From an uncultured Clostridiaceae bacterium (lineage in GTDB: Bacteria > Bacillota > Clostridia > TANB77 > CAG-508): a stretch of 64,000 nucleotides of DNA. The stretch's first letter is position 1, and each line of letters opens with the position of its first letter. Positions 37,358 to 58,814 of this stretch are shown in pieces. The position numbers and the translations under genes were made by a program. The notes under the pieces are model-generated. The model did no database searches. It had not been told where the DNA came from and saw only the letters and a list, made by a program, of their open reading frames with translations. The stretch spans positions 1 to 64,000 of the forward strand of contig CAMOWC010000008.1 in NCBI GenBank assembly GCA_946628065.1, given 5' to 3'.

Positions 37358-37393
37358 AAAATAAAATCACGGCTTTGCCGTGATTTTATTTTA
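37358..37393. terminator. Bidirectional terminator between tmk and the giant surface gene
   Basis: AAAATAAAATCACGGC with its complement, loop TTT, with T-rich flanks on both strands. It overlaps the stop codon of the giant gene. Confidence 0.92.
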
Positions 37394-40300
37394 TTTGTTT
37401 ATAAAGCGTTTGACTAATATAATTCCAGAAGCTAGTACTGTTAGAATTCCTATTCCAACTATTGCTTTTCCTATGTAATCTTTGTCTTCACCTTGTGCTG
37501 GAGTTACTGTTACGTATTCTGCACTATCGTATAATGGTGCATATGTTGGGTCTGCGTTTGCTCCTGTTTTTTGGTCTGTGTCTACTGCTACTGAAGCAAT
37601 TTCTACGTCGTTGTCTATTTTTATTTCGTCACCATTTGCAATTATTTTTGATGTTTTTATTGTTCCAACACGGCTTTCGCCTGCATTGTAAGGATCTTTT
37701 ACTAATGTGTTGTCTGGATTACATTGTACTATTTCTTTGTTTTCTAGTTTTATTGCTCTTATAACTTTTGTTGATAACGCATTATTTTTATACTTGCTTT
37801 TTTCCCATTCCTGAATAAATTCTTTATATATTTTAGCTATACATTTTCTTGCTTCTTTTGAACTTAGTGCATTTCCAAAAGCTTCATAGTTGCTAAATAA
37901 GTTCATTTCTTCAAGAGCTGCCACAATCTCCTCTTCATTTTTATTGTTTCCAACTTTTTCATATATGCTCATTATCAATTTTTCTGTAGCTGTTTCTTGT
38001 TCAAGGTCTCCATCAGGAACTTTTAAGTACTTATCTCCTGTAGTAGCTGCTTGCCAGTTATCTTCAGCTGCGCTATCTGATGTTATTGTTGCTCCACCTG
38101 AGTAATCATATAGATTTGTTGCTTTCAATTTCAATTGTTTTCCTTCTTCAGCTAGGCCGAATAAATAGTAACGTAAACTATCATAATCTAGTTCGCTTAG
38201 TGCGGATACTGTGATGTCATATTCTGTTTCAACTTTCATAGCTTGCTCTATGTCTTTGTCGATTTGTGCATATAAGTATCCTAAATTATATCCACCTGAT
38301 ATGAATCTTTCTCCGGCTATTGCGTTTACTTTTCCGTCTATTCCTATTGTTGCTATTATTATTGGTCTTCCTTCTGGTGTTGTTACTTTGATTGATTTTA
38401 TACGTTTTTGAACGCTCATTGCACGTTTTGGTCTTTCTATGATACCGAAGTCAACTTTTTGAATGTTAAAATCAAATCCATTAAAAGAATTATCTTTTAA
38501 TTTTTTACTATCTTCATCTGTTGTTTGACCAGTTTTTTCTCCATTTTTTTCTACACCAACAACAAATTGCGGTGTTTTAGAATGCATATAATTACTTCCG
38601 TCTTCGCCAGTTTTACCATTAAAGAAATTAGATACTGTATTATATAATTCATCTTGTCCTTGATATGCATCACTTCCAACGTTTAATGTTTTCATATCTA
38701 TTGCAAGTCTTCTTATATAGTCATCCTTAGCATCTGAGTATTGTATTTCCTCTTCTAACCATTTATAACCATCTTCGTACTCAATTTCATCATTATATAA
38801 AGCTGTATTTTTATTGGTAATTTTTGGATTTGAAAGTATTGTACATTTATAACGAGATACATCCTTTCCTCCTAAGTTTTCGCCCCATACAAATTCTACT
38901 CTATATTCACCTGGAATAAATCCTGTCATATCGAATTTACCATCGCTTCGACTTGAAAATGTTTTTTCTGTTTGCCATTTTGTTCCATCCCAGAATTGTG
39001 CTGACTTTCCATTCGTATCAACAAGTTTAACTTTTACATTTGAAACTGGGGTATCATTTCCCATATTTCCACCTGTTGGTCCATTATAAATACCATCACC
39101 AATTCTTTCTTCTCCTGGATCAATTTTTCCATTGTTATTTATATCATATAGTTTTTCTTCAGAATCGCGGTTATTATTACCATTTTTGTCTTCCCATTTT
39201 ACTGGTGCATCTTCGAACACATATCCAGTAATCTGTCTTTGACTTGGTTCTATTACTGCTAAGCCTGGCGCTCTGTCTTCGTCATCCTCTTTTTGGTCAG
39301 CCGCATATCCAGCTCTAGATTTTAGAGTATTAGCAAGTGTATTTGGTATTGATGTACTATCTACATGTGCATATCTATTTGTATAACCGCCTTCATATAC
39401 AGAGTAACTTGCTATTTCTGAATAATTTTCGAAATCACTTATTCCATCAGCTACATATGTACTATAGTTATTTTTCAATGCTTCCTTATCTATTTCAAAT
39501 GTGATATAAAGGAATTTTGTATTTGTACCGTCAGATGATGTTAATGGTTTCAATTGGGCTTTATCAGCTAAATTTATTTTATAAGCTTGATAATTCTTTC
39601 CGCTACCTGCTCTTATTGCTGGTATTTTTGTTGCTGTTACGCCCTTATTGTATAAATTGTTTCTACTATTTGCAAAATAGTTATTATCAGGTTGTATATT
39701 GTCTGTTATGTAGATTCCTTTTATTGTATACCCTTCTGAGAAATACTCGTATAAAGAATTAACTCTAGTATATAGGTTTGTTGAAGCATTTTGAAGTTTA
39801 ATTTTATATGTTATTGTTGCGTTTAATTCTTTTCCATTAGCATCTTCAGAACCTTTTTCTATATCGCCATAGTATACGTCTGCTTCATATAATGGTAATC
39901 TATAATCTTCATCAAAATCTACTGCTGTTGATACTTGTTGAGCTTCTAATGTTTTAAGTTTTTGATTATACATGTATGTATATTTTATATCATTTATAGA
40001 TATATCTGCTTTATATATATCCTTTTGCAGTGTTAAATTTGGTTGTTCTCTTAAATATAAACCTAAGTTTAAGTTTGGAATTTCCTTTAATAATTTTACA
40101 GCATTAGTCTCGTAACCATCAAATACTGATGGTGTTTGGTTATATGCCATTAAGTCATAATAATATTTTAATATACTTTTTTCAGTATCACCATCATCAA
40201 ACTTATCAATTGAAGCTTTTACTAAATAATTATAAGTTTTACCCTTTGGGGAGTTAAATTGTACAGTTGGATTATCATCATCAACCTGTTCTAGATATGG

Positions 40301-43300
40301 TTTATATGTATTATCTAAGAATACTTGGCCATCCTTTTTAATATAATGCAAGTTTTTATTTCCTTTGTATGTTATTGTTTGTCCTTCTCCTGTTAATTCT
40401 TTAAAAGCATTATTTAAATCTGTTCTATCTGTTGTTTCAGTTGCTTTTGATGTTTTTGAATCTGGATGTTGCACATCATTTCTTGTTTTTTTATCATTTA
40501 TTTTCAAAGGAGCATTTTCTGATGTATATTCTGGTACTACAGCTTCGTATGTTATACCGCAGTAATCAAATTCAATATAATAGTTCTCTAAATCTTTTAT
40601 TTTTACTTTGCTGAATTTATAGTTTCCATCTCCATTACATCCTGCTTTTTTGTCTCCTGTTTGTACTCTAGCCATTTCTATTGTGTGTGGTGTGCCTTTT
40701 TTATCTGTAATTCTTTTCATTAGTCTTACTGTGATATTATTTATGTTTTTGTCATTTTCGCCTGTTACTCCAACCATTTTTTGGTTGTCTCGGTTTATTT
40801 TATCTTTACCGCCAGGCATATCTTGCCATACATTACCGCTAATATCGATAAATGTTTGCTCGTTTTTATATGTTTCATTTGTAACTACTGGTTTGGTTAT
40901 ATCTGTTTTATCGATGTTTTCCTCAACTTCTACTTTGCCTAGTAATTTTGCGCAATCACTCAACTTTAAATTTAAACCATTTGAGCTATTTATCGCATTT
41001 ATACCAGCTGTGCTTGCATCGTAAACTGCTATTGTATCATATTTTTTCAAATCTGCATCTGTATTTGTTGGACTTTTTTCCAAGTAATCTGCATTCAATG
41101 CAAAGTAGTCTTGATACTCTTCAGGAATGTATGTTTCATATGCCCAATATGGCATTTTTACATTCTCGCTATGCCAAATTGGAATTTTCCACACAGTTGG
41201 AGTATAACCCTCTGCATCTGTTTCTAATGCTGTAGCTTCATCATACGTTGCATGTAAGTCTGTAACTACGTATTTACCATCGGTATTTTCTTCAACTTTT
41301 AACCATCCCATTCCCTGATTTGACATACATCTTATTTTTATTTTTACGCCTTTTAATGGTGTTCGTGTTAATTGGTCTATTTTCCTAAATTTAACCGCCC
41401 CATACCATTGGTTGTTTGTATATGTTACTAAACAGGTATTGTATATTTTCTTGTTATTTACATCATATCCATGATATTTATATTCTTGCGATAAGTTTTC
41501 CTTAAATGCATCATCGACTTTTATTGTTTCTATACGTTTTCCTGTTTTCACTTCGCCATTATAAGTGAATGTTCCAACATTATATAAATATTCGTATCCA
41601 GATGCATCGATTTCGAATATTGAATAATTTTTTTCTGCTGCTCCTATTACTGGTAAAGGTATTCGTTTTATTAACCTTGTATAACCTTCTTTTCCATTTT
41701 CGCCAGTTACGAATACAGCTGTATTTGTAGCTCCTTCAGAAGCTCTCATTGATTCATAAGTTGTTTTTACACTTCTATATATTCCATTTGCATCTGCTGT
41801 TAACCAGCTTCCTTTTTTGTTTGAATCAGTGCTATTTGTGTCTTCTGCAAGTATTGCGAATTTTATATCATTTAAATGGTCTCCATCTTTATTTTTCTTC
41901 TCAATTTGAATTGAAAAATAATCTCTAGCATTGTATCCTGTCCAAGTATATTTTCCATTAGTTGATTGAACTACATTTGTAGTACTGCTTCCAGAAGGCC
42001 TTTTAGCATAAATAGTTAATGGTTCTAGTAATGTAAATTCCTTTGTTGTCTTTGATAATACTTTAATCTTTTTAGTTGTATCTATATTATATGGCGTAAA
42101 AAATTTAGCTTTATATGTTGTTCCATTATATGATGCGCCTGAAGGTCTTAGAGTATAATAATCCTCTACTCCTGTTGGAAGTGCTGTTTCTACAAACCAG
42201 TATTTTGCACCGCTTTCCAAACGTCTTATTATTTCTGTTTTACCATCTGCTTTTGTTGTTAGTTCGGTAGCATCATTGAAACTACCATATACTACATCAC
42301 TATGTTCATCGTTTGGATTTACTTTGCGTACCCACTTGTATGTTCCATTTGCTTCTTGTTTGCATACTTTGAATTTGAAACCAGCGTAGTTGTTGTCAAA
42401 TGTTCCGTTGTAATGGTCTCTTTTCTGGATTTGAAGTGAGACGTAGTCACGGGTGTTAATAATAGTCTCTGGAGAGAATTTTCCATAAGTATTATTGATA
42501 TCAGAATAATACATACTATTATATCTATCTAACTCGGCTACTTTCTTTAATGCATAAGTACATCCGAATGTGTTTGTATATGGATCTGCTTTATACAAGT
42601 CTCTCAATTCAATAGGCATTTCCGATTTACCCATTCTTGCTAAATCTCCATGACTATCAATTATCTCGTATATAGCATATTGCCCTGGTGCCAATCCAAC
42701 TATTTCTCCAGTATTTCCATTAGAATCTGTTGTAAGAATAATTGCAGTACTACTATCAAAGTAGCCATCTTGATATTGTATTTTTCCACTTGAATTTTTA
42801 GCTACCCATCCATCTCCTACTTTATTTACTAGAAAACTGATTCCAGATAAATTCAATGGGTTTCCATTTTCATCTACACCTAGTTCATCTTCTTTATGAA
42901 TAGATAGGTTTCCTTGCAAATGATAGAAATGATATGTCTTTTTAATGCTCTCCTTCTTAGGTGCAGGACTATATTCATAAGTTGTCTTACTTACATCAGC
43001 TGGTACTTGATAAATATCAGGAAGAACTTGTGATGTATTATAATCATCTACTCTGTGGTATTTCTTTTGGCCATTAAAATAATAGTATTCCTCTTTTGTA
43101 TATTCAAGCTTTTCATATACGCATACATCATAAATATATTGATAATTCTTCAAGTCGTTTTCTGTTACTTTTAAATAGAAAGTAGCATTTTGTTTATTTT
43201 TCAAATCTAATTCGCCACCTGTAGAATTATATGCCTTGGTTATTGTTCCAGAATTTTTTCCTGTTCCTTTAATTTCAAAAGTATATGAAATATTGAAATT

Positions 43301-46300
43301 ATTGTCTGTTGTTCTTGATGTTATAATTCCATTTTCTTTTTTTACTCTTTCAACAGAGCTATTAATATTAAATGGTCCCATTAAATAACTACCATTACTT
43401 AATTTCTTTATTGGAACAACACTGCCTTCGTTTGATGAAGTATTTTTAAATGCATCATATTCAGTATATGTACAATATTCTGGGTCTAAAAAATTATATC
43501 CAACATCATCTCCAGCAGCAGTGAATCTATATTTATGTGCTGGGTATCTGTTAACTTCACCATTGAATCTATCGTCATAAAATTGATTTCTCCAGTTCCT
43601 AATATCTGTATGAGTATTTAAATATTCTTCAACCAATTCTGGATCTTTAAAAGCATATTCTATATTATAATTAAATTCATATCCCCCATTTGGATTTGCG
43701 GGCTTATCATAATTAGTACATTCTGCTTTAAAAAGATTATCAAATGAGCCATCTTCATTTAAAGATCCAAAGCTTTTCCAATCATCATCAATCCAAAAGA
43801 ATTGTGGATACCAACCAAAAAGTAACTCTTTTACAGTTCCATAATAATTTGATAGCTCATGATCTTCAATATCACTTAATTGATTTCTTAAATAATTCCA
43901 ATTTCCATCATATTTATTATATAAATATAATGTTCCTCCACCATAACTTCTATTTGTATTATGTTCAAATGCAAAATCAATGTCATCAATGTCATCTATC
44001 GTAAGCTCACGTCCTTTTGTGTATACAATTCTATTCTGATCCAAGAAAACATAAAAACGATTTGGGATTTGTAAATATTTACCAGTTTTTATTGGTTTGG
44101 AACTATCAAATACATATATATTTTTTTCTATCCCCGCTTGATCTCCGAGATCAAATCTCCATCTATGTTTAACATCATTCCACAAGAAAAGTGTTTGAAT
44201 TTCCACCGGAGCATTTATTCCTGGTATTTCTGATATTGCATTATCTGCATGGCTTAGAATATTCATATATCCTGCAGATATCATAAACATTACTAATATA
44301 ACACAAAATATTTTTATTTTCATATTTTTAAAAATGTTATGTTTTTGGTTTAATACAATTATTATTCCAATTATAATAAGTACAATAAGACTAATTATAA
44401 TATCCAATCCCGTACTGATTGATAATATTATTTCAGAACCTGATATGTTGTTATTAGTGTTGATTTCCTCAATTTTTAGTTCGTTAGATATTCCTTCAAT
44501 TATTACTTTATTTGTCAATGTACCTGTTGAATCTTCTGTCATTGTTCTTGTTGCTACCAATGTCAATTCAACACTATTTCCAGCTTCAATTATTTGATTT
44601 GCTAAACTTGTATTTATAAATGTTCCATCAATATTACTATTCCATAATGATGTTGATTCTGGTGCAACATTTAATCCTTTAGGTAAATAATCTACAACTC
44701 TTTCAACTTTTCCTGGTAATTCTCCATTATTTGTTACAATTATTTTATATTCTACTGTAACAACTGCCCCTTCTATTTCTTTGGCTCTTATTTCTGCTTT
44801 TGCTAAGTTAATTTTAGAGTATGGAGTTTCTGTTGTTCCACTTTTTGTTTTTACAGTTATTTTAGAAATATAATTTTCAACTTTAAAGTCAAACTTTTTG
44901 TTTTCAATTAAACCTAAGTTTATATTTTCTATGTTTTTATTTAGAGTTATTTGTTCTGTTACACCAACTGTGTTTTTTTCTCCATTTATTACAACATTTT
45001 GTTTTGTTACATTTGAATTTGTTATTCTATATTGATTTGTGTTATATTTAAATACTACATTATATTCGCCAATATCTATATCTGTAAAATTATATTTACC
45101 ATTATTATCTGTTTTTGTTTCTTTTACAATTTCTCCGTTTCCATTTAATAAAAATGTTTGTATTTCAGATAATAGTTGTTCATCATCTTGTTTTTCTCCA
45201 TCCTCATTTTTATCATTCCATACATAACCATTTAAACTATATTTATTAACTCCTGGTTGGTCTGGTTCTTCAGGTTGATCTGGCTCATCTGGTACATCCG
45301 GTTGATCTGGCTCATCTGGTTCGTCTGGTGTATCTGGTTCTGTTGGTTCTACATAGTTTGCAGGTATAATTGTATGTGTAATTACATTTGATGTTTTAGA
45401 TTCAAATGTAGCATTATATACATATTGTGTTTCATTATCTCCTAGTATAACTACATTTTCTGATACTGTTGCTCTATTTTCTATTTGTGTTTTTTCACTT
45501 ACAGTTTTTGCTCTAGTTCTTACTTTAATTGTTATAGTTTCATTATATGGAATTTTTAAAGGTAGTTCGAATTTTGCAGATGAATTTTCATCTCCTAATT
45601 CATCATTATAATATATAGGTTCTGTAATCTCTTCTTCGCCTGGTGTATATGTTTTTTCTTGTTCATTAACTTCAAAATAATTGTATGTTATATCTATTGG
45701 TTCTAAATTATTTGGTAGAAAGTCTGAAATTTTAACATTTACACAAGAAAATCCTGTATTATAATTAACTTTTCCTATATTTTTTACCTTTATTTCGTAG
45801 TCAATTTCATCATTAACATTAACCATTTCTCCAGCATTTGGAGATGTCATTGATATTGTAACTGCCTCATATTGTAATAGAATTCTATTTTCATTTGATT
45901 TATATTCTTTATTTCCATCATTTAACTCTGCAATAGCTTTAATTTCAATGCTTGATTTACCATCTTCTTTATCTATCTTACTATTTATAACTTTTGTATA
46001 TATGTTATAAATACCTGGTTTTGCATTAAACGAAATACTATTTTCATCATTATTGTTTTTTTCATATTCAACGCTCACTCCCGCAAAGCCCGAATTGTCT
46101 CTTACAGTTGTTACTTCCATACATTTAGGTAGTTTAACAATAACTGGCATCATGTTTTCGTCATCTTCTATATCACTTTCAACATATAATCTATAATGAA
46201 ATTGATTTTTCAAATATATAGAAGATGAAAGAAATAAATTATAATTAGCTTTTTCAACTTGATGTGTTATTTCTTTTTCATTTCTTAAACCATCTCCAAC

Positions 46301-48364
46301 AAATGCTTTTATATTTGTTGTAATTTGTTTTTGTGTTTCTCCTTCAGCTAAATCATTTACTTTAACTTCAAAATAAGTTGTTGCATTTTTCCCTGCTTTT
46401 ATTGTTCCAAGTTCTATTGGTTGTAATTGTTTTTCAAAATCATAGTAGCTTTCTACATATGGTTCGTTATCTTCTCTTACTAATTCACCATAAGTTACAC
46501 CATCAGGCAATGTTGCAACTATTTTTACATTGTCTATATCTTGTTCTGTAGTATTTGTTGCAGTAATTTCATATTTTATGAATTCTCCTTCATAAACTGT
46601 ATCTCTTGTTACATCACCTATTACAGGATTTACAGAAATAGAAATACCTTGTGCTGTTGCTTCTACACTACGTGTTGGTCCAACAGATGTTAATCTTCTT
46701 GTCATTGTTTGCATTGTGTCATTTTGTGTCAAAGATTGGTTAAAGTTTTCTATTATTATTTTATTATTTATTACTTCTGTTTCAGTTTGTCCTGTATATT
46801 TATTGTCATTTTGATATGCAGATTTTAAGTTGAATTCTTTGCTTTCAATATTGTTTGAAAGTATTATTATTGCTGGTATTTTTATTATTGTTCCGTCTTC
46901 TAGAGCTGGAGATAAGTATTTTGTTTGTTCTCCCTCTAGTTCAACTTTAATTATTCTTTTTTCTTGGTTATATTCTGTATTTTTTATTTTTAATCCATTA
47001 GCATTTGTTAATATTGTTTTTTCATTAAACAATACTTTTTCTGTTTCTTCTGGTAATCGTATTGCAATTACTGGATTTTTAAATAAATTGTATTTATTGC
47101 TATTGTTGTGTAAGCTTATTTTAAACTCTATTTCGTTTTGTTTTTCGTTTGTCCATGTTGTTTGACTTGGCTCTACTGTTACTTCTGTTTTAGAGTCTTG
47201 TATTTCTATATCTGTTACTTCATCTTGGTTGTATGTTTCTTTTATTTTTGCTAGTTCAAAGTTCTTTTCTTGTGCTGTTATTGCTTTTTCGTTTTGTATT
47301 GTTATATTTCCTGTTTTTGTTGCATTACTTAGTTCTAATGAGATTTTAGTTGTTCCTTCTAGGTAGTCTATTTTTATTGTTCCATCTTCATTGTTTTGAG
47401 TGTCTTTATTAATATCTGCTAATACATTTTCTTGATCATCTAATATTTTTAATGATCCTTCTTCTCCTAAAATGTCTAATATGTTTTGTTTTTCTAATTT
47501 GCTTGATTTAAATACTATATTTTCGCTTTCTATTTCTACATTCTCTTTGTTTACAAATTTTTGTGTTAAATCTATTGTTTGTGTACCTAAATTTTCTTTG
47601 CTTATGTTTATTTGCACATTTTCTTTGTATGTTGTTTCATAATCTGTTCCATTTATTGCATTTGATTTTATATATCCATTGTAAACTTTTGTGTTTTCTA
47701 CTTTTGTTGATATTAGTTTTGAAACATTTTCTTTTACTGTTTGTTTGTTTTCAAAATCGTTTTGTATTCTTATTTTTTCTTCTGTGTTTAGCGCTTCTAT
47801 TACTTTACCTGATACTCCTAAGTTTCTTTCTTTGTTTTCACTATTATAAGCATTTTCTCCATAATTTAGTATTATGCTAAAGCTATCTTTTGCATTTTGT
47901 TTGTAACCTTCGTATATTTTGCCTTCTTCGTTTTTGTTGTTTGAAGTTACTATTGCTATTTCTCCTGTCTCTTGTTTGTATACAAATTTATAATCTTTTC
48001 CTTTATTTGAGCCATTTGTAAGGAGTGTTGATTTTGCAATTATATTTACACTTGTTGGGTATTCTTCTTCTATTTTTGGGGCATTGAATAAAATACCTGT
48101 TGCAGCTAATGGCACATAGTTTTCATTGTTTTTATATTCAATTCCAGCATCTACACCATATTGCACAAGTAGACCTTTTTCAGTTTCGTTTTCGTAGTTT
48201 ATGTATTTTTCTAAAACTGCGTCTGCTGTTGCTACTATGTTTTCTGTGTTTATGCTTTTCTCACTTTCACCTGCTACTGACACTAAGAATTTACTATTTG
48301 CTGATAGTACCATCAATAACAATAATAAAATTAATCCCCTTATTTTGTTTAGCTTGCTTTTCAT
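37391..48364 (-). CDS. Giant adhesin-like surface protein, fusion of two paralogous genes
   Basis: Protein of 3657 residues. Part 1 (1-1347): signal peptide (about 8-30), DUF11-like and other beta-sandwich modules, an acidic Pro linker (about 1010-1040), an SdrD-B-like module (about 1040-1150), another DUF11-like module and a membrane span (about 1315-1340). Part 2 (1348-3657) opens with a second signal-like segment beginning MKIKIF. It has a unique N-terminal region, four SpaA/Cna-B-like modules starting near 1816, 1971, 2148 and 2321, SdrD-B-like modules near 2505 and 3041 (with Asp/Asn-rich calcium-type loops), and a C-terminal span behind TPAQGED. Parts 1 and 2 correspond to the gene pair at 58814 and 54319. 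Probably a long stalked surface adhesin. Confidence 0.88.
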   Translation of the reverse strand: MKSKLNKIRGLILLLLLMVLSANSKFLVSVAGESEKSINTENIVATADAVLEKYINYENETEKGLLVQYGVDAGIEYKNNENYVPLAATGILFNAPKIEEEYPTSVNIIAKSTLLTNGSNKGKDYKFVYKQETGEIAIVTSNNKNEEGKIYEGYKQNAKDSFSIILNYGENAYNSENKERNLGVSGKVIEALNTEEKIRIQNDFENKQTVKENVSKLISTKVENTKVYNGYIKSNAINGTDYETTYKENVQINISKENLGTQTIDLTQKFVNKENVEIESENIVFKSSKLEKQNILDILGEEGSLKILDDQENVLADINKDTQNNEDGTIKIDYLEGTTKISLELSNATKTGNITIQNEKAITAQEKNFELAKIKETYNQDEVTDIEIQDSKTEVTVEPSQTTWTNEKQNEIEFKISLHNNSNKYNLFKNPVIAIRLPEETEKVLFNEKTILTNANGLKIKNTEYNQEKRIIKVELEGEQTKYLSPALEDGTIIKIPAIIILSNNIESKEFNLKSAYQNDNKYTGQTETEVINNKIIIENFNQSLTQNDTMQTMTRRLTSVGPTRSVEATAQGISISVNPVIGDVTRDTVYEGEFIKYEITATNTTEQDIDNVKIVATLPDGVTYGELVREDNEPYVESYYDFEKQLQPIELGTIKAGKNATTYFEVKVNDLAEGETQKQITTNIKAFVGDGLRNEKEITHQVEKANYNLFLSSSIYLKNQFHYRLYVESDIEDDENMMPVIVKLPKCMEVTTVRDNSGFAGVSVEYEKNNNDENSISFNAKPGIYNIYTKVINSKIDKEDGKSSIEIKAIAELNDGNKEYKSNENRILLQYEAVTISMTSPNAGEMVNVNDEIDYEIKVKNIGKVNYNTGFSCVNVKISDFLPNNLEPIDITYNYFEVNEQEKTYTPGEEEITEPIYYNDELGDENSSAKFELPLKIPYNETITIKVRTRAKTVSEKTQIENRATVSENVVILGDNETQYVYNATFESKTSNVITHTIIPANYVEPTEPDTPDEPDEPDQPDVPDEPDQPEEPDQPGVNKYSLNGYVWNDKNEDGEKQDDEQLLSEIQTFLLNGNGEIVKETKTDNNGKYNFTDIDIGEYNVVFKYNTNQYRITNSNVTKQNVVINGEKNTVGVTEQITLNKNIENINLGLIENKKFDFKVENYISKITVKTKSGTTETPYSKINLAKAEIRAKEIEGAVVTVEYKIIVTNNGELPGKVERVVDYLPKGLNVAPESTSLWNSNIDGTFINTSLANQIIEAGNSVELTLVATRTMTEDSTGTLTNKVIIEGISNELKIEEINTNNNISGSEIILSISTGLDIIISLIVLIIIGIIIVLNQKHNIFKNMKIKIFCVILVMFMISAGYMNILSHADNAISEIPGINAPVEIQTLFLWNDVKHRWRFDLGDQAGIEKNIYVFDSSKPIKTGKYLQIPNRFYVFLDQNRIVYTKGRELTIDDIDDIDFAFEHNTNRSYGGGTLYLYNKYDGNWNYLRNQLSDIEDHELSNYYGTVKELLFGWYPQFFWIDDDWKSFGSLNEDGSFDNLFKAECTNYDKPANPNGGYEFNYNIEYAFKDPELVEEYLNTHTDIRNWRNQFYDDRFNGEVNRYPAHKYRFTAAGDDVGYNFLDPEYCTYTEYDAFKNTSSNEGSVVPIKKLSNGSYLMGPFNINSSVERVKKENGIITSRTTDNNFNISYTFEIKGTGKNSGTITKAYNSTGGELDLKNKQNATFYLKVTENDLKNYQYIYDVCVYEKLEYTKEEYYYFNGQKKYHRVDDYNTSQVLPDIYQVPADVSKTTYEYSPAPKKESIKKTYHFYHLQGNLSIHKEDELGVDENGNPLNLSGISFLVNKVGDGWVAKNSSGKIQYQDGYFDSSTAIILTTDSNGNTGEIVGLAPGQYAIYEIIDSHGDLARMGKSEMPIELRDLYKADPYTNTFGCTYALKKVAELDRYNSMYYSDINNTYGKFSPETIINTRDYVSLQIQKRDHYNGTFDNNYAGFKFKVCKQEANGTYKWVRKVNPNDEHSDVVYGSFNDATELTTKADGKTEIIRRLESGAKYWFVETALPTGVEDYYTLRPSGASYNGTTYKAKFFTPYNIDTTKKIKVLSKTTKEFTLLEPLTIYAKRPSGSSTTNVVQSTNGKYTWTGYNARDYFSIQIEKKNKDGDHLNDIKFAILAEDTNSTDSNKKGSWLTADANGIYRSVKTTYESMRASEGATNTAVFVTGENGKEGYTRLIKRIPLPVIGAAEKNYSIFEIDASGYEYLYNVGTFTYNGEVKTGKRIETIKVDDAFKENLSQEYKYHGYDVNNKKIYNTCLVTYTNNQWYGAVKFRKIDQLTRTPLKGVKIKIRCMSNQGMGWLKVEENTDGKYVVTDLHATYDEATALETDAEGYTPTVWKIPIWHSENVKMPYWAYETYIPEEYQDYFALNADYLEKSPTNTDADLKKYDTIAVYDASTAGINAINSSNGLNLKLSDCAKLLGKVEVEENIDKTDITKPVVTNETYKNEQTFIDISGNVWQDMPGGKDKINRDNQKMVGVTGENDKNINNITVRLMKRITDKKGTPHTIEMARVQTGDKKAGCNGDGNYKFSKVKIKDLENYYIEFDYCGITYEAVVPEYTSENAPLKINDKKTRNDVQHPDSKTSKATETTDRTDLNNAFKELTGEGQTITYKGNKNLHYIKKDGQVFLDNTYKPYLEQVDDDNPTVQFNSPKGKTYNYLVKASIDKFDDGDTEKSILKYYYDLMAYNQTPSVFDGYETNAVKLLKEIPNLNLGLYLREQPNLTLQKDIYKADISINDIKYTYMYNQKLKTLEAQQVSTAVDFDEDYRLPLYEADVYYGDIEKGSEDANGKELNATITYKIKLQNASTNLYTRVNSLYEYFSEGYTIKGIYITDNIQPDNNYFANSRNNLYNKGVTATKIPAIRAGSGKNYQAYKINLADKAQLKPLTSSDGTNTKFLYITFEIDKEALKNNYSTYVADGISDFENYSEIASYSVYEGGYTNRYAHVDSTSIPNTLANTLKSRAGYAADQKEDDEDRAPGLAVIEPSQRQITGYVFEDAPVKWEDKNGNNNRDSEEKLYDINNNGKIDPGEERIGDGIYNGPTGGNMGNDTPVSNVKVKLVDTNGKSAQFWDGTKWQTEKTFSSRSDGKFDMTGFIPGEYRVEFVWGENLGGKDVSRYKCTILSNPKITNKNTALYNDEIEYEDGYKWLEEEIQYSDAKDDYIRRLAIDMKTLNVGSDAYQGQDELYNTVSNFFNGKTGEDGSNYMHSKTPQFVVGVEKNGEKTGQTTDEDSKKLKDNSFNGFDFNIQKVDFGIIERPKRAMSVQKRIKSIKVTTPEGRPIIIATIGIDGKVNAIAGERFISGGYNLGYLYAQIDKDIEQAMKVETEYDITVSALSELDYDSLRYYLFGLAEEGKQLKLKATNLYDYSGGATITSDSAAEDNWQAATTGDKYLKVPDGDLEQETATEKLIMSIYEKVGNNKNEEEIVAALEEMNLFSNYEAFGNALSSKEARKCIAKIYKEFIQEWEKSKYKNNALSTKVIRAIKLENKEIVQCNPDNTLVKDPYNAGESRVGTIKTSKIIANGDEIKIDNDVEIASVAVDTDQKTGANADPTYAPLYDSAEYVTVTPAQGEDKDYIGKAIVGIGILTVLASGIILVKRFINK

Positions 48365-49567: not shown

Positions 49568-52500
49568 TTATTTTAACACTTTTTTCTTTATGATTATTAT
49601 TCCTACTCCAAGTACTGCTATTGCAGATACTGCTGTTATTATTATCCATGTGTAATCTCTATCTTCACCTGTTGCAGGTGTTACTGTTGTCCATGCAGCT
49701 CTTGTGTATGCTTTTGATGTGTATGCACTTGGTTTGCTTCCTGTTCTTGCAGCTGTTTCAAATGTGATGTTTGTTATTTCTGCATCGTTATCAAATCTTA
49801 TGTCGTTACCATTTGCTAATTCTTTTGATAATTTAATTTCAGCTGTTTCGCTTTCACCCGGTGCCATTGCTCTTGTTAGTTTTGTTCCATTGTATTTTAG
49901 GATTTCTCTACCATCTAGTTTTACTTTTCTTATATCAGTTGTTCTTGTTGTTGCCATTTGTTCTAACCATTCTGTGTAAATTTCTTTAGTTTCAGAATGT
50001 GAGCTTTCCCATGAATATGATTCATTTATAGTTCCATCTTCATTAACTTTTCTTGCGAATTGTTCTTTGAAGTTTTCTTCTGTTATTGTATCTCCTGTTG
50101 TTGTATCTATTCTGTAATCTCCAGGTTTTACTGTTTCCCATTCTGTTGTATTTTCTGATGATAATAATGCACCTTTACAATAATCATAAATTGCTTCTGC
50201 TCTTAGGTTCATTGTGATTTGGTCACCATTTTTTACACCATATTTGTAGTAATCTTCATTATCATAGTCTATTTCGCTAACATTGCTTACTGTAATGTTA
50301 TAGCCCATTTCTGCATTCAATCCTTGTGTTATACTTTTATCTACTTGTACCCATAGATAATCTTTTCCACCTGTAACCCATTTTTCTCCAGTTTTAACAT
50401 CTAATGTTCCGTCTTCTTTTATTGATGCATTTACTATTTGTGCTCCATCATTAGTTGTTAAAAGTATTGATTTTAGGTTTTTGTTGATTTCCATTGCTTG
50501 TCTTGGTCTTTCTATTATACCGAAGTCTACATTTGATACATTATATGTGTATCCGTTTTCTCCTGGTGCTTCTGTATATTCTTCTTTTTCAATTCCTATT
50601 GCAAAGTCTGGTGTTTCAGAAATCATTTTGCTTAAATCGTCATATCCAGCTGTGTCTCTATTATATAAAGCTTTTTGATCTATTGCTACTCTTAAGTTGT
50701 AATCATCCATTGCATCTGAATATCTTGGATTTTCTTCTTTAATCCAGTTTGGATCATTTGCTCTATCTTTATTTACAAAGATTGTTCCTTTGTAGTTTTC
50801 TACTTTATATTTGTCATTTCCCCATTTATATTGTACTTTGTATGTTCCAGCCATGAATCCTTTAAAGCTGAAGTTTCCGCTTGCATCTGTTGTTGTTGTA
50901 CCTACAATTTTCCATTCGCTTCCATTATATTGTAATAGGCTTACTTCTACACCTGCAATTTTTGTTTCGTCATCTTCAAATTTTCCATCACCAATTCTCT
51001 CTTTTCCAGCTCCAAATGATATTGCTCCATCTTCGAATACTGTTCCTGAGATTGTTCTTTCTGCAGCTTCTACTAAGTGTAATCCAGGTGCATTATCTGA
51101 ATCGTCTTCATCTGTTTCGGCGAATCTATCTGCAATCATACTTCCTGGAATTGAGTTTGTATCTATTGCTGCATATAAGTTTTTGAATTCTTTGTCTGAA
51201 TATGTTGTATATTCATTTATTTCAACAAAGTTTTCAAGATTAATATTTTTGTTGTAAATATTTGCAACTTCATTAACATTTAATTTAATGTATACATATT
51301 TTGTATTTCCTTCTTGGTCTGGTGTTAATTTGATTGGTTCTGCAAATTCTATTGGTGTTCTGTTATATTCTGAATTTTGATCTGGATTTGTTGTTTTAGG
51401 TTCTCTCTTTAATTGTAGTCTATTATTATCATCAAATGTTTTTTCTGCTGGATCATTGCTTAAGTAAATCTCATATTTTTCATTTGAATCTTTTGCTATA
51501 GAATAATCTTTTGAATACCATTCATTTAAACCATTAACTGTTGTATAAAGGTTTGTTGAAGAATTTTGTAATTTAATTTTATATGTTACAGTTGCATTTA
51601 GTGCATTTGCCCCCTCTGATTTTTCAGCATCTGCTCTGTATATTGGTAATCTATAGTCGTTATCGAAGTCTACTCCAGTTGTTGTCTCTATCGCATCATT
51701 TCCAACTATTTTTTGATTATACATATATGTGTATTTATATCCATTTACGCTTACTTCTGCATTATATACGTCTTTTTCTAAGCTTAGGTTTGGCATTTCT
51801 CTACGATAAACTCCTAAGTCGATGTGTGATATTTCTGTTACTACATCTTGTGTTTCTTTTAGTTTATCATAGTATGCTTGTAATAGGTTACCTAAAACAG
51901 TTGCATTTACTTCAAAGTCTGTTTTTCCTTCAACTTTTATTCCTGTATTTGTTTCTACTAGTTTTGAAGTATTTTCTAATGTTACAATATCATTTGATTT
52001 ATTGTATTTTAGTTCTACTCCATTACTTAATTTTTGACCTTTTCCTGTAACCTCTTTGAATTGATTATTAACATTTCCTCTTGTTGTTTCTGTTTCAAAT
52101 GCTTTTGAAGTTGTTGTATTTATTGTTCCATCATCATTAAATTTCTTAACTTCATTTTTAGATGGTGCTGTACTTTGATAAATGAATCCATCATATTTAA
52201 ATTTTACGTAATAACGATTTAAGTAATCTGCTTTTTCTGAATTGTCTGATTCTCTTATTCTTACTTTATCAAATGTGTATTCACCTTTTGCATTTGTAAA
52301 TGTGCTTATTTCTTGTTTTGTTATTCTATCAACAAGTGTTACTTCGATTCCTTCAATTAATTTATCGTCTTCAGAGTTATATTCGCCATCTCTTGATTGC
52401 TTGTTCTTTCCTTGTAATGTATCTTCAAATACTTTACCAGTTATTTTAATAAATACTTGTCTATTTTTTTCTTCGAATGGGAATACACCTGTTGTATTTG

Positions 52501-54319
52501 CTTTTACTTCTTGTGTATCCACTAGTTTACCATCGTATTCTTTATTATCTTTTTTGAATTTTCCAAGATCGTAAGCTTCACCATTTTCACCAAGTTTTGT
52601 TTCGTATAACTCGTATTTTCCAACTGGTAAACCTTTTAATGTTGGTGTTATACCATTTACTGTTACTAGTTTTGCAACTTTTGCATCGTTAAAGTCTTTT
52701 GTATATGTGTCTTTTTCTAATACAGTATTGTTTTCTGCTCTTACCCAACCTTGTTCGTTTCCATCTATTCTGTATAGTCTGAATTCATAACCATTTAGGG
52801 GTTTTCCTGTATCTCCATCTATTTTATGAACATATACATCTGTACGAGATCTATTGTTTACAGCTGTTACTGTTGCTGGTTGGCTAGGTGTTACTTTATA
52901 TGTTCCACTTGTACGATTTCCATTGCTATCTACTTGCCATACACGTTGTGCTTTTACTTTTCCAGTTTTTCCTGGCACTGTTGTTTCTTCTAATTGATAA
53001 ATATCTTGTAGTCCTGTTGGTAAACCTGTTTCATAGATTCTGTATTGCTCTGTTGATGGTAAGTTTTCTATTGTTATTTTTCCTTTTGCGTCTGTTTTGA
53101 ATTTTTCTGCATCATCATAATTTGGTACAAAATTAATTTTTTGTCCGTCTTTTTTTACCCATCCTTTATTTTCAGCATATACTTTGAATTCTATGTCTTT
53201 TAGGCTTATTGTTGAGTCATTAAATTGGTCAACTTTTTGGATTTCAAGTTTTCCAGTTTTTGGTAGTGGTAATGTTTTTTCTACTTCAGTATTTGTTTTT
53301 TCTCCATTATATATAATGAAGTTTTGTGATGCACCACCACTAACTATAACTATTCTTGCTTTTGTTGATACTAATGCTGTTTTTGATTTTATTTTTATAC
53401 TTTCTATTTTTGTTGTGCTGTTGTTTATAACAACATAAAATGGTTTGTGATGTTTTACTGAATCTACACTTTTTATAGCATTTGTATCTATTTTTTCTGC
53501 TATTCCAACTGCTTTTTCAGAATTATTTATAGTGATTTCTCCAATTTTAGCTCCACCTGTAAGGTTAACTCTATATGGTCCTATAAATGTTTTTCCGTTT
53601 ACTGTTGTTGCTGTTATTTTATTTTTTTCTGATTCTTCCATAGATACTTCTAATGCTTGTGTTTCTATCGCTCCTTGTTTTTGAGCTTGAGTTGCAAATG
53701 CTTCAGCCTCATTTATATATTTGTTGTATCCTGTGTAACCATATCCTTGTCCTTGAATATAGTTTGATAAGCCAACTTTTCTCATTTGATTAACATATGT
53801 TGTTTCCCACATTATTCTTGTCATAGCATCTTTAGCTGTAGCATTTGTTGTAGCCCATGTTTCTCCCTTTTCTTCTGCTACTCTAGCTAGATATGCTAGC
53901 ATTAATATAGGTTTTACATTTTTATTTGATACGCTGTATTCTACACCATTTTTATTTTTTTCGCTGTATACTTTTACTACATTGCTTTTAGTGTCGTTAT
54001 TGATATCAAAAATGTTTACTACTTTATATGTAGTTCCTGTAAAATAGTGGCCATTTGGATGTATACACATACCTCCAACTTGGTTAACTGGAGCATCTTG
54101 TCCTGATTTTACTTTGGCTCCAATTGATTTAGGAGCTTCCAAGGCATACCATTCTTCTTTGTTTTGTGAAAGTTTTATTAATTCACCTACAGTTTCGCCA
54201 TTTTTAATCTTTGCAGCATTTGATGTATTTCCAATAAATCCGAATACTATTGAAATGGCAATAAGTAAGCTTGTTACTATAGATATATTTTTATAAATAT
54301 GACTTTTAGTATTACTCAT
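49568..54319 (-). CDS. SpaA/Cna-B and SdrD-B domain surface protein with LPxTG-like end
   Basis: Protein of 1583 residues with a signal peptide (about 10-36). An N-terminal domain contains Cys85 (GGMCIHPNGHYF) and later MTRIMW at 166-171, which recalls thioester adhesin domains, but the Gln of the usual Q-x-x-I-W motif is absent. Two SpaA-like modules follow (from about 356 and 496), then SdrD-B-like modules (from about 620 and 1086) with DUF11-like stretches between. The C-terminus reads VTPATGED, a membrane span (about 1556-1578) and KKK, like a sortase signal with Thr in place of Leu. No sortase gene is in the window. The start ATG overlaps the upstream gene by 8 bp behind AAAGGGGG, so translation is probably coupled. 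Confidence 0.88.
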   Translation of the reverse strand: MSNTKSHIYKNISIVTSLLIAISIVFGFIGNTSNAAKIKNGETVGELIKLSQNKEEWYALEAPKSIGAKVKSGQDAPVNQVGGMCIHPNGHYFTGTTYKVVNIFDINNDTKSNVVKVYSEKNKNGVEYSVSNKNVKPILMLAYLARVAEEKGETWATTNATAKDAMTRIMWETTYVNQMRKVGLSNYIQGQGYGYTGYNKYINEAEAFATQAQKQGAIETQALEVSMEESEKNKITATTVNGKTFIGPYRVNLTGGAKIGEITINNSEKAVGIAEKIDTNAIKSVDSVKHHKPFYVVINNSTTKIESIKIKSKTALVSTKARIVIVSGGASQNFIIYNGEKTNTEVEKTLPLPKTGKLEIQKVDQFNDSTISLKDIEFKVYAENKGWVKKDGQKINFVPNYDDAEKFKTDAKGKITIENLPSTEQYRIYETGLPTGLQDIYQLEETTVPGKTGKVKAQRVWQVDSNGNRTSGTYKVTPSQPATVTAVNNRSRTDVYVHKIDGDTGKPLNGYEFRLYRIDGNEQGWVRAENNTVLEKDTYTKDFNDAKVAKLVTVNGITPTLKGLPVGKYELYETKLGENGEAYDLGKFKKDNKEYDGKLVDTQEVKANTTGVFPFEEKNRQVFIKITGKVFEDTLQGKNKQSRDGEYNSEDDKLIEGIEVTLVDRITKQEISTFTNAKGEYTFDKVRIRESDNSEKADYLNRYYVKFKYDGFIYQSTAPSKNEVKKFNDDGTINTTTSKAFETETTRGNVNNQFKEVTGKGQKLSNGVELKYNKSNDIVTLENTSKLVETNTGIKVEGKTDFEVNATVLGNLLQAYYDKLKETQDVVTEISHIDLGVYRREMPNLSLEKDVYNAEVSVNGYKYTYMYNQKIVGNDAIETTTGVDFDNDYRLPIYRADAEKSEGANALNATVTYKIKLQNSSTNLYTTVNGLNEWYSKDYSIAKDSNEKYEIYLSNDPAEKTFDDNNRLQLKREPKTTNPDQNSEYNRTPIEFAEPIKLTPDQEGNTKYVYIKLNVNEVANIYNKNINLENFVEINEYTTYSDKEFKNLYAAIDTNSIPGSMIADRFAETDEDDSDNAPGLHLVEAAERTISGTVFEDGAISFGAGKERIGDGKFEDDETKIAGVEVSLLQYNGSEWKIVGTTTTDASGNFSFKGFMAGTYKVQYKWGNDKYKVENYKGTIFVNKDRANDPNWIKEENPRYSDAMDDYNLRVAIDQKALYNRDTAGYDDLSKMISETPDFAIGIEKEEYTEAPGENGYTYNVSNVDFGIIERPRQAMEINKNLKSILLTTNDGAQIVNASIKEDGTLDVKTGEKWVTGGKDYLWVQVDKSITQGLNAEMGYNITVSNVSEIDYDNEDYYKYGVKNGDQITMNLRAEAIYDYCKGALLSSENTTEWETVKPGDYRIDTTTGDTITEENFKEQFARKVNEDGTINESYSWESSHSETKEIYTEWLEQMATTRTTDIRKVKLDGREILKYNGTKLTRAMAPGESETAEIKLSKELANGNDIRFDNDAEITNITFETAARTGSKPSAYTSKAYTRAAWTTVTPATGEDRDYTWIIITAVSAIAVLGVGIIIIKKKVLK

Positions 54320-57300
54320 GATTTGCCCCCTTTCTTTTCTTTGTGTAAACTATTATTCCTGTTGTAGTCAATACAATTATTGCTATTATTATTCCTATTG
54401 ATACTTCAACACCTGTTCTAATTGATACGATTAATTCTGCTGAGCTTGTGTTGTCTGCTGTATCTTTGTCTGGTATTGATAATTCGTTGCTTGTTCTTGC
54501 AATTTCTGCTTTGTTTGTTGTTACACCTGTGTTATTTTCTGTCATTGCTTTTGTTAATGTTAATACAACTTGTTTTGTTTCTCCTGGTTGTATTATTTCT
54601 TTTGAAAGTGCTGTTGTATGTACGTTTCCGTCTGTAGATTTATACCAGTTTTTATTTATTTCTGAGTTGAAGCTCATGTCTTTTGGCATGTAGTCTACTA
54701 TTTCGTTTGCGTATCCAGCAAGTTCACCTTCGTTTGTTATTTCTAATGTGTATTCTACTAATACTGTTGATGATGCTAATAATTTTGCATCTATTTCAAC
54801 TTTAGCTAATTGTTGTTTGTTGTATTGTTTTACTACTGTTCCAGCAGTATTTTGAATTGTTACTTTGCTTATGTATTTGTTTATTTTTAAATCAAATACT
54901 TCATTTTCGATAAATCCAGCATCGATATTTTGTATACTTTTATCTTTTAATACTAATTTATCTGTCATTGCATATATTTTTGAATTTCCATCTGTTGATA
55001 TTGTTCCTGTAATTATGTCTGAGTTTGTTGCTTCTGAAGCTGATGCTACTTGGTATTCTGTATTTCTGTATTTTAAGTTATCGAATGTAAATACTACCAT
55101 GTAACTTCCTTCTTCGATATTTTCGAATGTGTACATTCCATTTTTATCTGTTTTTACACTTAGTCTGTTTCCATTTTCGTCTGTTACGAATTTGTTTGTT
55201 TTTGTATTTACTAACATTGCTGTAATTCCTACAAATGGTTTTTCTGAACTTTCTCTAACACCATTTTTGTTTGCATCAATCCATGCCATACCTGAAATTG
55301 TGTTTTTGATTGTTACTATACCAGGGATTGTTGGCCCATCTGTTGGTTGTGGCTCTGGATCTTGGTTTCCAGGTTCTTCAGTATTGTTGTTTCTAGCATT
55401 TGTTTCTAATGTATGTGTAATTTCTTTAGTAATGTCTTCTTCCATTAGGTTACCCATAACAGTTACTGTATTTGTTATTGTATCTTTTCCTGTTCTTGTT
55501 TCATCAACTTCTGTTTCTATTGTTACAATAGCTTGTTGTTCAGGATCTAATACTATTTTTTGATAAATTGAATTATCATCTTTTACAGTAATATCACTTG
55601 TTTCTTTTCCAATTGTGTAATATGCTTTTTTGATTTGTGCAGCACTTGGAACTGAATCTGTTATTGTTACACCATCTGTGTTTTTACCTACATTTTTTAT
55701 TGCTATTTTATAAACTAAACTATCTCCTGTTTTTATTGCTCCATTTTTATTTGATGTCATAGCAACGTTCATTTGAGATACTTTTTTCTCAATTAAGCTT
55801 GTTTCAACATAGTTTGAATAGTATTTTGTACCATCAACTGTTGCTGTAAAGCTTATTTTTTGTTTTTTGTTTTCGTTATATTTAACAACTTTTATTGGAA
55901 CTATCATTTCTTTTGTTGCTCCAGATGCTAATGAGTTTACTTCAAATGATAATGAGTTGTCTTGTTGTTTTGTTATTGTGTAGTTTTTGTCATCACTTGT
56001 ATCATCTTCTTCTATATCCATAGAATATGCTTCTATAATTTGATATTCTTCTGGTACTGTGATGTTTACTGGTATTTTTGTTAATTGTGCATCTGATGTA
56101 TTTTTTATTCTTAATGTTAATCCTACTATGCTTCCTAATTGGTTAGGATATTCTTTTGATTCGTTAGATTCTAGGCTTAGTTTTAATGCTGCATTTTTTA
56201 CTGTGTTTGAAGTTTTTAATTCAATTTTTTCAATGTTTTCGCCTGTTATTTCTGCTGTTGATTCTAATTTTTGAGCATCTTCTTTTACTCTTACTTGATA
56301 TGTTAATACTATTGTTGCTTTTTTTGGAAGTGTAAAGTCAGATACTTTATATTCTGAATCTCCAACTTGTTCTCTAACAAATGTGTAGTTTGCATATTGT
56401 TCTGTACCTTCTAGATATATTGGTACTTCTCTTTCTACTTTTGTGCTTGCATATACGTTTGCACCTTCATGAACTGCTTTAAAGTTTACTTTTTCAATAT
56501 CATTATTTGTTTGGTTTGTTATTTTATATGTATATGTAACGGCTTGACCTGCATTTACTTGGTCTCCATCTTTTAATGTTACTCCAGCTGATACTGCTGT
56601 CATTGCAACTTTTATTTTATCTGTTGATTCTTCTACTGCTGGTCCCAACTCTTTTGGTGTCTCTTCTTCTAATGTTGGATCTTGGTTAGTTGGTTCTTGT
56701 GTTGGATTTTGTTGTGTTGGCTCTGTTGTTTGAGCTTGTTTTTGTATATCTATTATTACATCTGTTGAAACAGGTTCTGGTTGTGTTGCAGCATTTTCGT
56801 TTGTATATGACATTGTTACTTTTGCTGCTTTTGCTACTGGTAGTTCTGTTCCTTCTGGTACATTAGCTTTTACCGCTACTTTTGCATTTACTGTTACTAC
56901 AATTCCTCCAACTGTTTGGTTATCAAATACTGTTTGTTCCCCTTCAATTTTGATTATTATTTTGTTTCCATCTACTGTTATTTTTGATTGGTCAACCTTG
57001 AAGTTTTCATCTTGTTTTTCTGCGAACACTACGTTTGCAGATACATTTGATATTTCTGCTACATCTTCTGGTAATTCTAATGTAATTGTTGGCTCTTTAA
57101 ATAAGTATGTATCTGGTGTTCCTGTTGGTAATTTAACTTGGAATTCTACATCATTTACATTTTTTGTTGAGAATACATATCCAGTTGGCATTGTTAATTG
57201 TGCAGGTTTTGTTGTTGGTTCGTTTAGTTTTGTATATACTATTGCTGTTGAACCATTTGTATCTTTATTTGTTGTTACTTTTATTGCTGTTTTTATTGCA

Positions 57301-58814
57301 TTTATCTCTTGAATTGCTTCTTTGCTTAATCCTGCATTTCCAATTATTGCTTTTTGTGCAATTATTTCTATTGTTCCTTCATTTATTGGTTGGCTTGTTG
57401 TTATTGTTACATTATGTGTATTTAATGTTAATTCTTTTTCTGATGAACTATTTATTTCTTTTACGTTTCCATCATCATCTCTTATTGTTATTGTTCCATC
57501 TCCGCCTAATACGTTTTCTACATTTTTCCAATCAAATTTTATTTTTGTATATTTTGTTTGATTATTTGTTTCTTGGATGTTTGTTTCTTTGATTTTATCT
57601 TCTACTACTTCTACATGTTCAAATTTATCTTCTTCTAATTTAAGTTCTACATTGTTTACACCTGTTTTATCTGATATTTCTATGTTGTATTTTTCTGTAT
57701 ATGGTGTTGGGTTAGTTGTATCTGCATACATGAATCCTTTATATACTTCTTTAGATACACTTGTAGCTTCTGCACTAACAATATTTCCTGAATTGAATTT
57801 TACTGTCATACTATCTTTTGGAAGAGTCATTGGTTTTTCTGCTTCATTATATCCCAAACATGTTGTGTATAATTTAAATTCTCCTACATTTCTAGTATAG
57901 TTCTTTAATTCATCTTGATTTTCAATATCATCAAATATATATATAAATTTATAAGTATCTGTTCCTGTACCATAATTAATTTTATTATCTTTTAATAATG
58001 AATTTGTAAATTTTAATGTTCCAGATGGTATATCATAGTATTTTGTTTTTACATTTTCTTCAACTTTTTTTCCATTTATTATAATATCTATAGTATCTGG
58101 TTCATTACCATTTATTTTTGGTACATTAATATCAAATCTATCGTTTATTCTTGGTATACTTTTAGCTGATACAACAATACCTTCTTGAATAAGAACTTTA
58201 TTTCCATCTTTTATTGCTTTTTCTACTGAATAATTAGTACCTTTTGATCCGACTTTCTCTTTATTTTCTGTCCATATCAATTTAGTATTTATTGTTGCTG
58301 TAACGTTTTCAGTTGATTCAGAGGTATAGTCTCCTGAAAGGGTTATTTGATTTTCCATGTTAAAATAATCTACATCGATTGTAGATTTCATCTCAAATGT
58401 TACTGGAATTTCTAGTACTATATCATCTTTTACATAGCTACCTTCAAGTTTTACTAATTTTATTTCTTTTGTTGCATTGTTTACTCCTGCAACATATTGG
58501 CTGTTAATTGTTTCTGGTAATTTAAAGTTTGCTTTGTCGTTTATTGTGATTTTTGCATTGCTTAAATCACCACTTTGTAGCTTGATTTTAGCATATAAAG
58601 TAGCCCCTTCTGATATATTTGCTTCTTTTGTGTAAATTTTGTTTCCATTAGCATCTTTAAAATAAGCGTCAAATGTTATTTTCCCGCCTTTAATGCTTTC
58701 TTCTCTGTCGCTTACCGCATATACTATGTTTGTGGCAACAAATAAAAAGTTTACCATTGTCATGCATAGTACTAGCATAAGTGCTGTTGTTTTTTGTAAT
58801 AGTTTTCCTTTCAT
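54312..58814 (-). CDS. DUF11-like/SdrD-B surface protein, first gene of a coupled pair
   Basis: Protein of 1500 residues with a signal peptide (about 10-34). Beta-sandwich modules with cohesin- or DUF11-like character run from about 40 to 690. A Thr/Pro/Gln/Glu linker lies at about 690-720. DUF11-like repeats follow (about 730-1150), then an SdrD-B module (about 1175-1290, SGMAWIDANKNGVRESSE) and a further DUF11-like module (TLEITNEGELAGYANEIVDY). A C-terminal span (about 1465-1488) ends in KKRKG. No LPxTG. It overlaps the next gene and resembles residues 1-1347 of the giant protein at 48364. ATG with AAGGAGG. Confidence 0.87.
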   Translation of the reverse strand: MKGKLLQKTTALMLVLCMTMVNFLFVATNIVYAVSDREESIKGGKITFDAYFKDANGNKIYTKEANISEGATLYAKIKLQSGDLSNAKITINDKANFKLPETINSQYVAGVNNATKEIKLVKLEGSYVKDDIVLEIPVTFEMKSTIDVDYFNMENQITLSGDYTSESTENVTATINTKLIWTENKEKVGSKGTNYSVEKAIKDGNKVLIQEGIVVSAKSIPRINDRFDINVPKINGNEPDTIDIIINGKKVEENVKTKYYDIPSGTLKFTNSLLKDNKINYGTGTDTYKFIYIFDDIENQDELKNYTRNVGEFKLYTTCLGYNEAEKPMTLPKDSMTVKFNSGNIVSAEATSVSKEVYKGFMYADTTNPTPYTEKYNIEISDKTGVNNVELKLEEDKFEHVEVVEDKIKETNIQETNNQTKYTKIKFDWKNVENVLGGDGTITIRDDDGNVKEINSSSEKELTLNTHNVTITTSQPINEGTIEIIAQKAIIGNAGLSKEAIQEINAIKTAIKVTTNKDTNGSTAIVYTKLNEPTTKPAQLTMPTGYVFSTKNVNDVEFQVKLPTGTPDTYLFKEPTITLELPEDVAEISNVSANVVFAEKQDENFKVDQSKITVDGNKIIIKIEGEQTVFDNQTVGGIVVTVNAKVAVKANVPEGTELPVAKAAKVTMSYTNENAATQPEPVSTDVIIDIQKQAQTTEPTQQNPTQEPTNQDPTLEEETPKELGPAVEESTDKIKVAMTAVSAGVTLKDGDQVNAGQAVTYTYKITNQTNNDIEKVNFKAVHEGANVYASTKVEREVPIYLEGTEQYANYTFVREQVGDSEYKVSDFTLPKKATIVLTYQVRVKEDAQKLESTAEITGENIEKIELKTSNTVKNAALKLSLESNESKEYPNQLGSIVGLTLRIKNTSDAQLTKIPVNITVPEEYQIIEAYSMDIEEDDTSDDKNYTITKQQDNSLSFEVNSLASGATKEMIVPIKVVKYNENKKQKISFTATVDGTKYYSNYVETSLIEKKVSQMNVAMTSNKNGAIKTGDSLVYKIAIKNVGKNTDGVTITDSVPSAAQIKKAYYTIGKETSDITVKDDNSIYQKIVLDPEQQAIVTIETEVDETRTGKDTITNTVTVMGNLMEEDITKEITHTLETNARNNNTEEPGNQDPEPQPTDGPTIPGIVTIKNTISGMAWIDANKNGVRESSEKPFVGITAMLVNTKTNKFVTDENGNRLSVKTDKNGMYTFENIEEGSYMVVFTFDNLKYRNTEYQVASASEATNSDIITGTISTDGNSKIYAMTDKLVLKDKSIQNIDAGFIENEVFDLKINKYISKVTIQNTAGTVVKQYNKQQLAKVEIDAKLLASSTVLVEYTLEITNEGELAGYANEIVDYMPKDMSFNSEINKNWYKSTDGNVHTTALSKEIIQPGETKQVVLTLTKAMTENNTGVTTNKAEIARTSNELSIPDKDTADNTSSAELIVSIRTGVEVSIGIIIAIIVLTTTGIIVYTKKRKGANHE

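Follow-up and report, generated by a model that had tools for sequence, protein, structure and literature searches.

Does a gene that joins two surface proteins in one reading frame yield one protein or two, and how did it arise? The question is raised by gene F, which occupies positions 37391–48364 of the minus strand in a 64,000-nucleotide stretch of DNA (the window; positions 1–64000 of contig C8 of genome G000) and encodes a surface protein in a member of the Clostridia from the ruminant gut. We consider its product to be probably a surface polyprotein, a single translation product that would be cut into two adhesin arms.

The fused gene and its relatives

F is a single, stop-free open frame of 3,657 codons, and its two parts, the first ~1,345 residues and the remainder, resemble the products of two neighbouring genes, A and B, respectively. 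Residues 333–1470 of the A protein (54312–58814) were aligned by BLASTP to residues 205–1321 of F (26%, E = 2e-62), and residues 482–1583 of the B protein (49568–54319) to residues 2311–3657 (32%, E = 1e-148), whereas the A and B proteins gave no BLASTP match to each other. Pfam assigns DUF11 and SdrD_B domains to the A protein and SpaA domains to the B protein. The preliminary description had presented F as a fusion of such a pair, its parts matching the genes that begin at 58814 and 54319; the alignments confirm this, and the 8-bp overlap of the two genes given there is also correct (54312–54319). Hydropathy peaks in F lie at residues 10–28, 1320–1338, 1352–1370 and 3633–3651, the inner two bearing out the membrane span, Lys/Asn-rich loop and signal-peptide-like segment that had been described at the join. 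On each point open to measurement, that description proved correct.

Orthologues of F, found with the N-terminal stretch of its B part as the query, are present in two other genomes, G293 (water buffalo rumen) and G403 (goat omasum), as open frames of 3,757 codons (G293) and 3,738 codons, with a G403 protein of 3726 residues; all genomes compared are metagenome-assembled genomes (MAGs). The flanking genes, including those for thymidylate kinase and a WG-repeat protein, stand in the same order. The ratio of non-synonymous to synonymous substitution rates over the whole frame is 0.32 between F and G293 and 0.41 between F and G403; the frame is under purifying selection. The window sequence also matches a contig of G480 (‘uncultured Clostridium sp. 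isolate SRR873610_bin.36’) with 0 differences in 31,601 bases, which was not counted as independent because the identity may reflect shared reads.

Many more long frames of this kind were found among the 118 genomes of the genus that were searched. Scanning the fetched loci with A and B profiles gave 33 distinct fused frames, which come from 26 genomes, and a further 6 broken ones, all in one genus, and F shares with them A-type and B-type C-terminal modules in one open frame. With 33 genes having it, the arrangement is far beyond chance. Among the matches listed from a family-wide sample of 390 genomes, clearly fused frames were confined to this genus, save for the MAG of the window and a contig of G262. 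The latter holds a fused-looking frame (G262:C9:1336-2385, 2342 residues) in another genus, either a transfer or a second misbinned contig. The window contig itself seems to be misbinned and to belong to genus g8, since its rpoB is closer to g8 (97% identical to G403 and G293, against 79% to G001 and G002 of the assigned genus) and 31.6 kb of it are identical to the g8 genome G480; the listed contamination of G000 is 6.2%.

The join and the fate of the product

The loop between the two inner spans, residues 1339–1351, reads NQKHNIFKNMKIK, and the second span (1352–1370) ends in LSHA-DNAIS. Over 38 joins the loop carries three to seven Lys or Arg residues and at most one Asp or Glu, and a second span was found in every fused gene. 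Directly before span 1, the motif [SG][IV]xTG is present in all 37 non-redundant joins; its T and G never change, while the residue preceding T is free; the TG pair is likewise invariant in a 15-row alignment of A-type sequences that includes F and in 23 fused rows. This motif resembles a sorting signal without being LPxTG, and sortase genes were present in 8 of the 8 genomes of the genus that were checked, 2–11 in each. Behind span 2, a signal-peptidase-I-like site of the form [AVSTIG]xA occurs in 32 of 38 joins, compared with 12.7 ± 2.8 (maximum 23) in 2,000 shuffles and with 5–13 of 38 in windows further downstream. As expected, genuine N-terminal signal peptides carry a looser signal-peptidase motif in 24 of 25 B genes and in 44 of 49 A or fused genes.

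The polyprotein that we favour would have come about and would be processed as follows. The ancestral pair would have comprised a secreted, membrane- or wall-anchored A protein with a DUF11/SdrD_B stalk and a B protein with a variable head and a SpaA stalk, and a single gene would have resulted when the intervening stop codon and ribosome site disappeared, on the simplest view in one event within the genus. From a single start, one chain would be made, the first signal exporting arm A; the old C-terminal anchor of A (span 1) would halt transfer and leave the lysine-rich loop inside, and the old signal peptide of B (span 2) would resume export, bringing arm B out up to its own C-terminal anchor. 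This proposed topology rests on established rules, namely stop-transfer, positive-inside and the specificity of signal peptidase. Signal peptidase I would cut after span 2 (SHA/DN) and sortase would probably act at the internal SISTG; arm A would stay anchored through span 1 or, once sortase had acted, be attached to the wall. The outcome would be two anchored arms in a fixed 1:1 ratio and in close proximity; the benefit would lie in that ratio and in the co-localised export of two partner surface proteins.

Several points weigh against this scheme. The A-type motif is non-canonical, and the use of sortase is a guess. The strict form of the [AVSTIG]xA site is missing in 6 of 38 joins, the motif being short and weak, and the 38 joins are not independent cases because the genes share ancestry. 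The C-terminus of F itself reads TPAQG-span-KR, with the T lost, compared with TPATG-span-KKK in the neighbouring B protein. AlphaFold models of the B N-terminus (predicted local distance difference test, pLDDT, 33) and of the F head (pLDDT 34) are too poor to use.

The main alternative is the membrane hairpin that had originally been proposed: F would stay one chain, both inner spans would sit in the membrane, and the two arms outside the cell would share a single tether point. The single open frame, the two spans and the positive-inside loop all accord with it, and the hairpin-like nature of the join stands. Against it, an uncut chain needs neither motif, yet the signal-peptidase-like site (32 of 38) and the invariant TG persist. 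Because that site is kept at the join, we rate the uncut hairpin as no more likely than two separate products and, taken by itself, as unlikely though worth serious consideration.

F could instead be an ordinary large multidomain adhesin in which the inner hydrophobic segments are functionless, drifting relics. Very large adhesins are common, and the region around the join is highly divergent, with 27–49% identity between F and G403; the spans, the loop charge, the TG pair and the cleavage-like site have nevertheless been kept while the other residues of the join changed within the clade, which makes this reading improbable.

Slightly more doubtful still is the production of two proteins by internal initiation, in which B would also be started at Met1348 (codon at 44323) or by coupling. 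The inner hydrophobic segment does start with Met in the window and in G293, and other joins often have a Met in or near the loop. The preliminary description had noted that Met1348 lacks a ribosome site, and its anti-Shine–Dalgarno pairing energy is indeed +1.3, compared with −15.4, −11.2 and −11.1 at the starts of B, F and A, respectively. Of the inner starts, 1 of 38 has a site of −7 kcal/mol or below; such sites precede 27 of the 35 separate B genes and 29 of the 31 N-termini of fused genes. Met1348 is replaced by Phe in G403, an in-frame inner start codon is missing altogether in five fused joins, and no in-frame stop lies nearby to allow re-initiation. Internal initiation was rejected on the lack of a ribosome site and the poor conservation of the Met. 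One fused gene, L133, retains AGGAGG in its loop codons (near 7060–7120) with no start codon after it, possibly a fossil ribosome site.

A false joining of two genes through faulty assembly or base calling, conceivable for a MAG whose identical G480 contig possibly derives from the same reads, and named at the outset as an outcome that would overturn the fusion, has a negligible probability, being refuted by intact fused orthologues at the same place in G293 and G403 and by 30 further fused genes.

Origin of the fusion and probable exchange of its parts

In the family, A and B ordinarily occur as a pair of separate genes. A profile of the A C-terminus matches 287 of its 292 genomes, and in the relatives’ loci that were read A and B adjoin on the same strand with A first. 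In unfused loci the B frame opens between 32 bases before and approximately 180 bases after the stop codon of A, and in most of these pairs a strong ribosome site abuts or overlaps that stop (for example, tagGAGGTGGTAAAATG and taaGGAGGTGTTAATATG), so a small change could delete both the stop and the ribosome site. Among 26 unfused pairs, five (L048, L147, L151, L167 and L046), about the chance expectation, already have B in the frame of A behind one stop codon, and the frame-restoring change originally invoked is thus unnecessary. Separate loci in relatives had been named as a possible objection to the fusion when coupled with a stop in this sequence; this check came out in favour of the fusion, as unfused pairs are abundant and F is stop-free. 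Read-through of an inner stop was rejected for F, which has none. Between the A–B pair and a lipoprotein-like gene, G293 has two genes, for a MYG1-like UPF0160 protein and for a GNAT acetyltransferase (L101:15835-17537), that are absent from the window.

A 72-row tree of the A C-terminal module places all fused and broken genes in one clade (support 95/93), and in a reduced tree of 22 rows the fused clade has support of 100/98 and appears in 100% of bootstraps. The only ‘separate’ row within the clade, L163_10421, is in fact fused, its frame being broken in two places. The A part of F sits inside the fused clade, apart from the separate A genes; F therefore does not derive from the neighbouring A gene, and forcing its lineage together with that of the 54312 A gene is rejected by the approximately unbiased (AU) test (P = 8e-5, 22 rows). 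Recent fusion of the neighbouring pair is accordingly excluded for the A part, and the preliminary description, which traced F to a change in such a pair, does not hold for the one next door: the fusion is old, as the single clade of fused A parts indicates, and spread over 26 genomes.

The B module has a different history. Fused and separate genes are intermixed in its tree, from which we conclude that the B part recombines; the B part of F groups as sister with the separate B genes at the F locus (98/96), and a single clade of all fused genes is rejected (AU P = 3e-85, 20 rows). On the simplest reading of these trees, the genes fused once, long ago, and B segments were later exchanged between tandem neighbours. 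Several fusions, in which one A lineage joined different B genes, could also be envisaged and are compatible with the mixed B tree, a point against a single event.

Behind span 2 the sequence is highly variable among fused genes. Pfam searches of 37 fused or broken-fused genes found SpaA domains in 32, a ricin-type lectin in 2 and a dockerin in 2. The lectin (E = 4e-32) or type I dockerin (E = 9e-11) stands behind the internal signal in the fused relatives L136:7474-10173 and L138:4307-7006. Separate B genes often carry [YF]C...QxAIW, and one has a thioester domain (TED) match above the Pfam cut-off (E = 1e-5), which makes an adhesive role probable for B-type proteins. The F head, by contrast, gave no Pfam match, and specifically neither a Pfam TED nor a [YFL]C paired with QxAIW. 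A tract of some 275 codons around the join (codons ~1275–1550, 43715–44542) is nearly identical in F and G293, with clearly more diverged flanks. In G403 this tract is strongly different. The join and head seem to have been exchanged as a unit, and the tract looks like the trace of a recent exchange of a join-plus-head cassette.

Whether the fused genes as a whole form a family of surface polyproteins, with internal signal-peptidase and sortase-type cuts, two wall-linked arms at 1:1 and a head swapped between strains as a cassette, is a generalization on which our confidence is evenly divided. Bacterial polyproteins are rare and, if the proposal is true, secretion signals buried in a giant protein would double as sites of processing. 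The A–B pair is suggested to act as a two-component surface system, and separate pairs beside fused genes in one genus offer a natural comparative test for selected 1:1 output of partner adhesins. Neither fused surface proteins of this kind nor the A–B pair turned up in a search of the literature. Overall, the original interpretation is partly supported.

The features of F and of the neighbouring pair are collected below; an Rfam search found no RNA element.

Table 1 Features of gene F and the adjacent A–B pair in the window
Feature	Position	Strand	Basis
Fused A–B surface protein gene F, 3657 residues	37391..48364	−	Open frame and homology; intact orthologues in G480, G293, G403
N-terminal signal peptide of F, residues 1–31, AGGAGG upstream	48272..48364	−	Hydropathy; Shine–Dalgarno energy −11.2
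A-type arm, residues 32–1317, DUF11 and SdrD_B	44414..48271	−	Pfam, BLASTP to A, A-clade tree
SISTG sorting-signal-like motif, residues 1315–1319, TG invariant, precedes inner span 1	44408..44422	−	Conservation across joins
Inner span 1, residues 1320–1338, former C-terminal anchor of A	44351..44407	−	Hydropathy 3.36
Positive loop, residues 1339–1351, contains Met1348 without ribosome site	44312..44350	−	Join comparison
Inner span 2, residues 1352–1370, former signal peptide of B	44255..44311	−	Hydropathy 2.29; alignment; in every fused gene
SHA signal-peptidase-I-like site, residues 1371–1373, predicted cut before Asp1374	44246..44254	−	Motif
B-type arm, residues 1374–3632: unclassified head, then B-homologous stretch	37469..44245	−	BLASTP to B
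C-terminal sorting-signal-like end, TPAQGED + span + KR, residues 3621–3657	37394..37504	−	T of TPxTG replaced by Q
Separate A-type gene, 1500 residues, of the tandem pair next to F, which does not descend from it	54312..58814	−	Pfam, trees
Separate B-type gene, 1583 residues, SpaA domains, TPATG anchor, 8-bp overlap with A	49568..54319	−	Pfam, motif

Comparison with known systems

A close parallel is FbcH of Bradyrhizobium, reportedly a precursor of cytochromes b and c1 in which an internal signal is cut by signal peptidase to give two products at 1:1. F shares with it the fusion of two genes that are adjacent in relatives, the placing of an internal signal sequence behind a membrane protein, and a signal-peptidase-like site (SHA) behind that signal-peptide-like segment. 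FbcH serves a respiratory complex, its cut is established and it has no homology to F, whereas F would encode adhesins and its cut is only predicted.

In LtaS of Staphylococcus aureus, the signal peptidase I SpsB cuts internally after a span (PMC10865820), so that a Gram-positive enzyme of the same class acts at an internal site behind a span, as is proposed for F; LtaS, however, is one polytopic enzyme from one gene and not a fusion of two secreted proteins. TIE or thioester-domain adhesins of the SfbI type (PMC4450167) resemble the B-type genes of the family in the N-terminal Cys-containing head, the SpaA repeats and the xPxTG anchor. They are single genes, in contrast to F, in whose head no thioester domain could be detected; a helix motif of the QxAIW type is absent from the fused genes. 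The A-type arm of F, with its SdrD_B and DUF11 domains, is similar to SdrD-like and DUF11-repeat surface proteins, but A ends in [SG][IV]xTG rather than LPxTG, and in F a second arm, predicted to be exported, follows.

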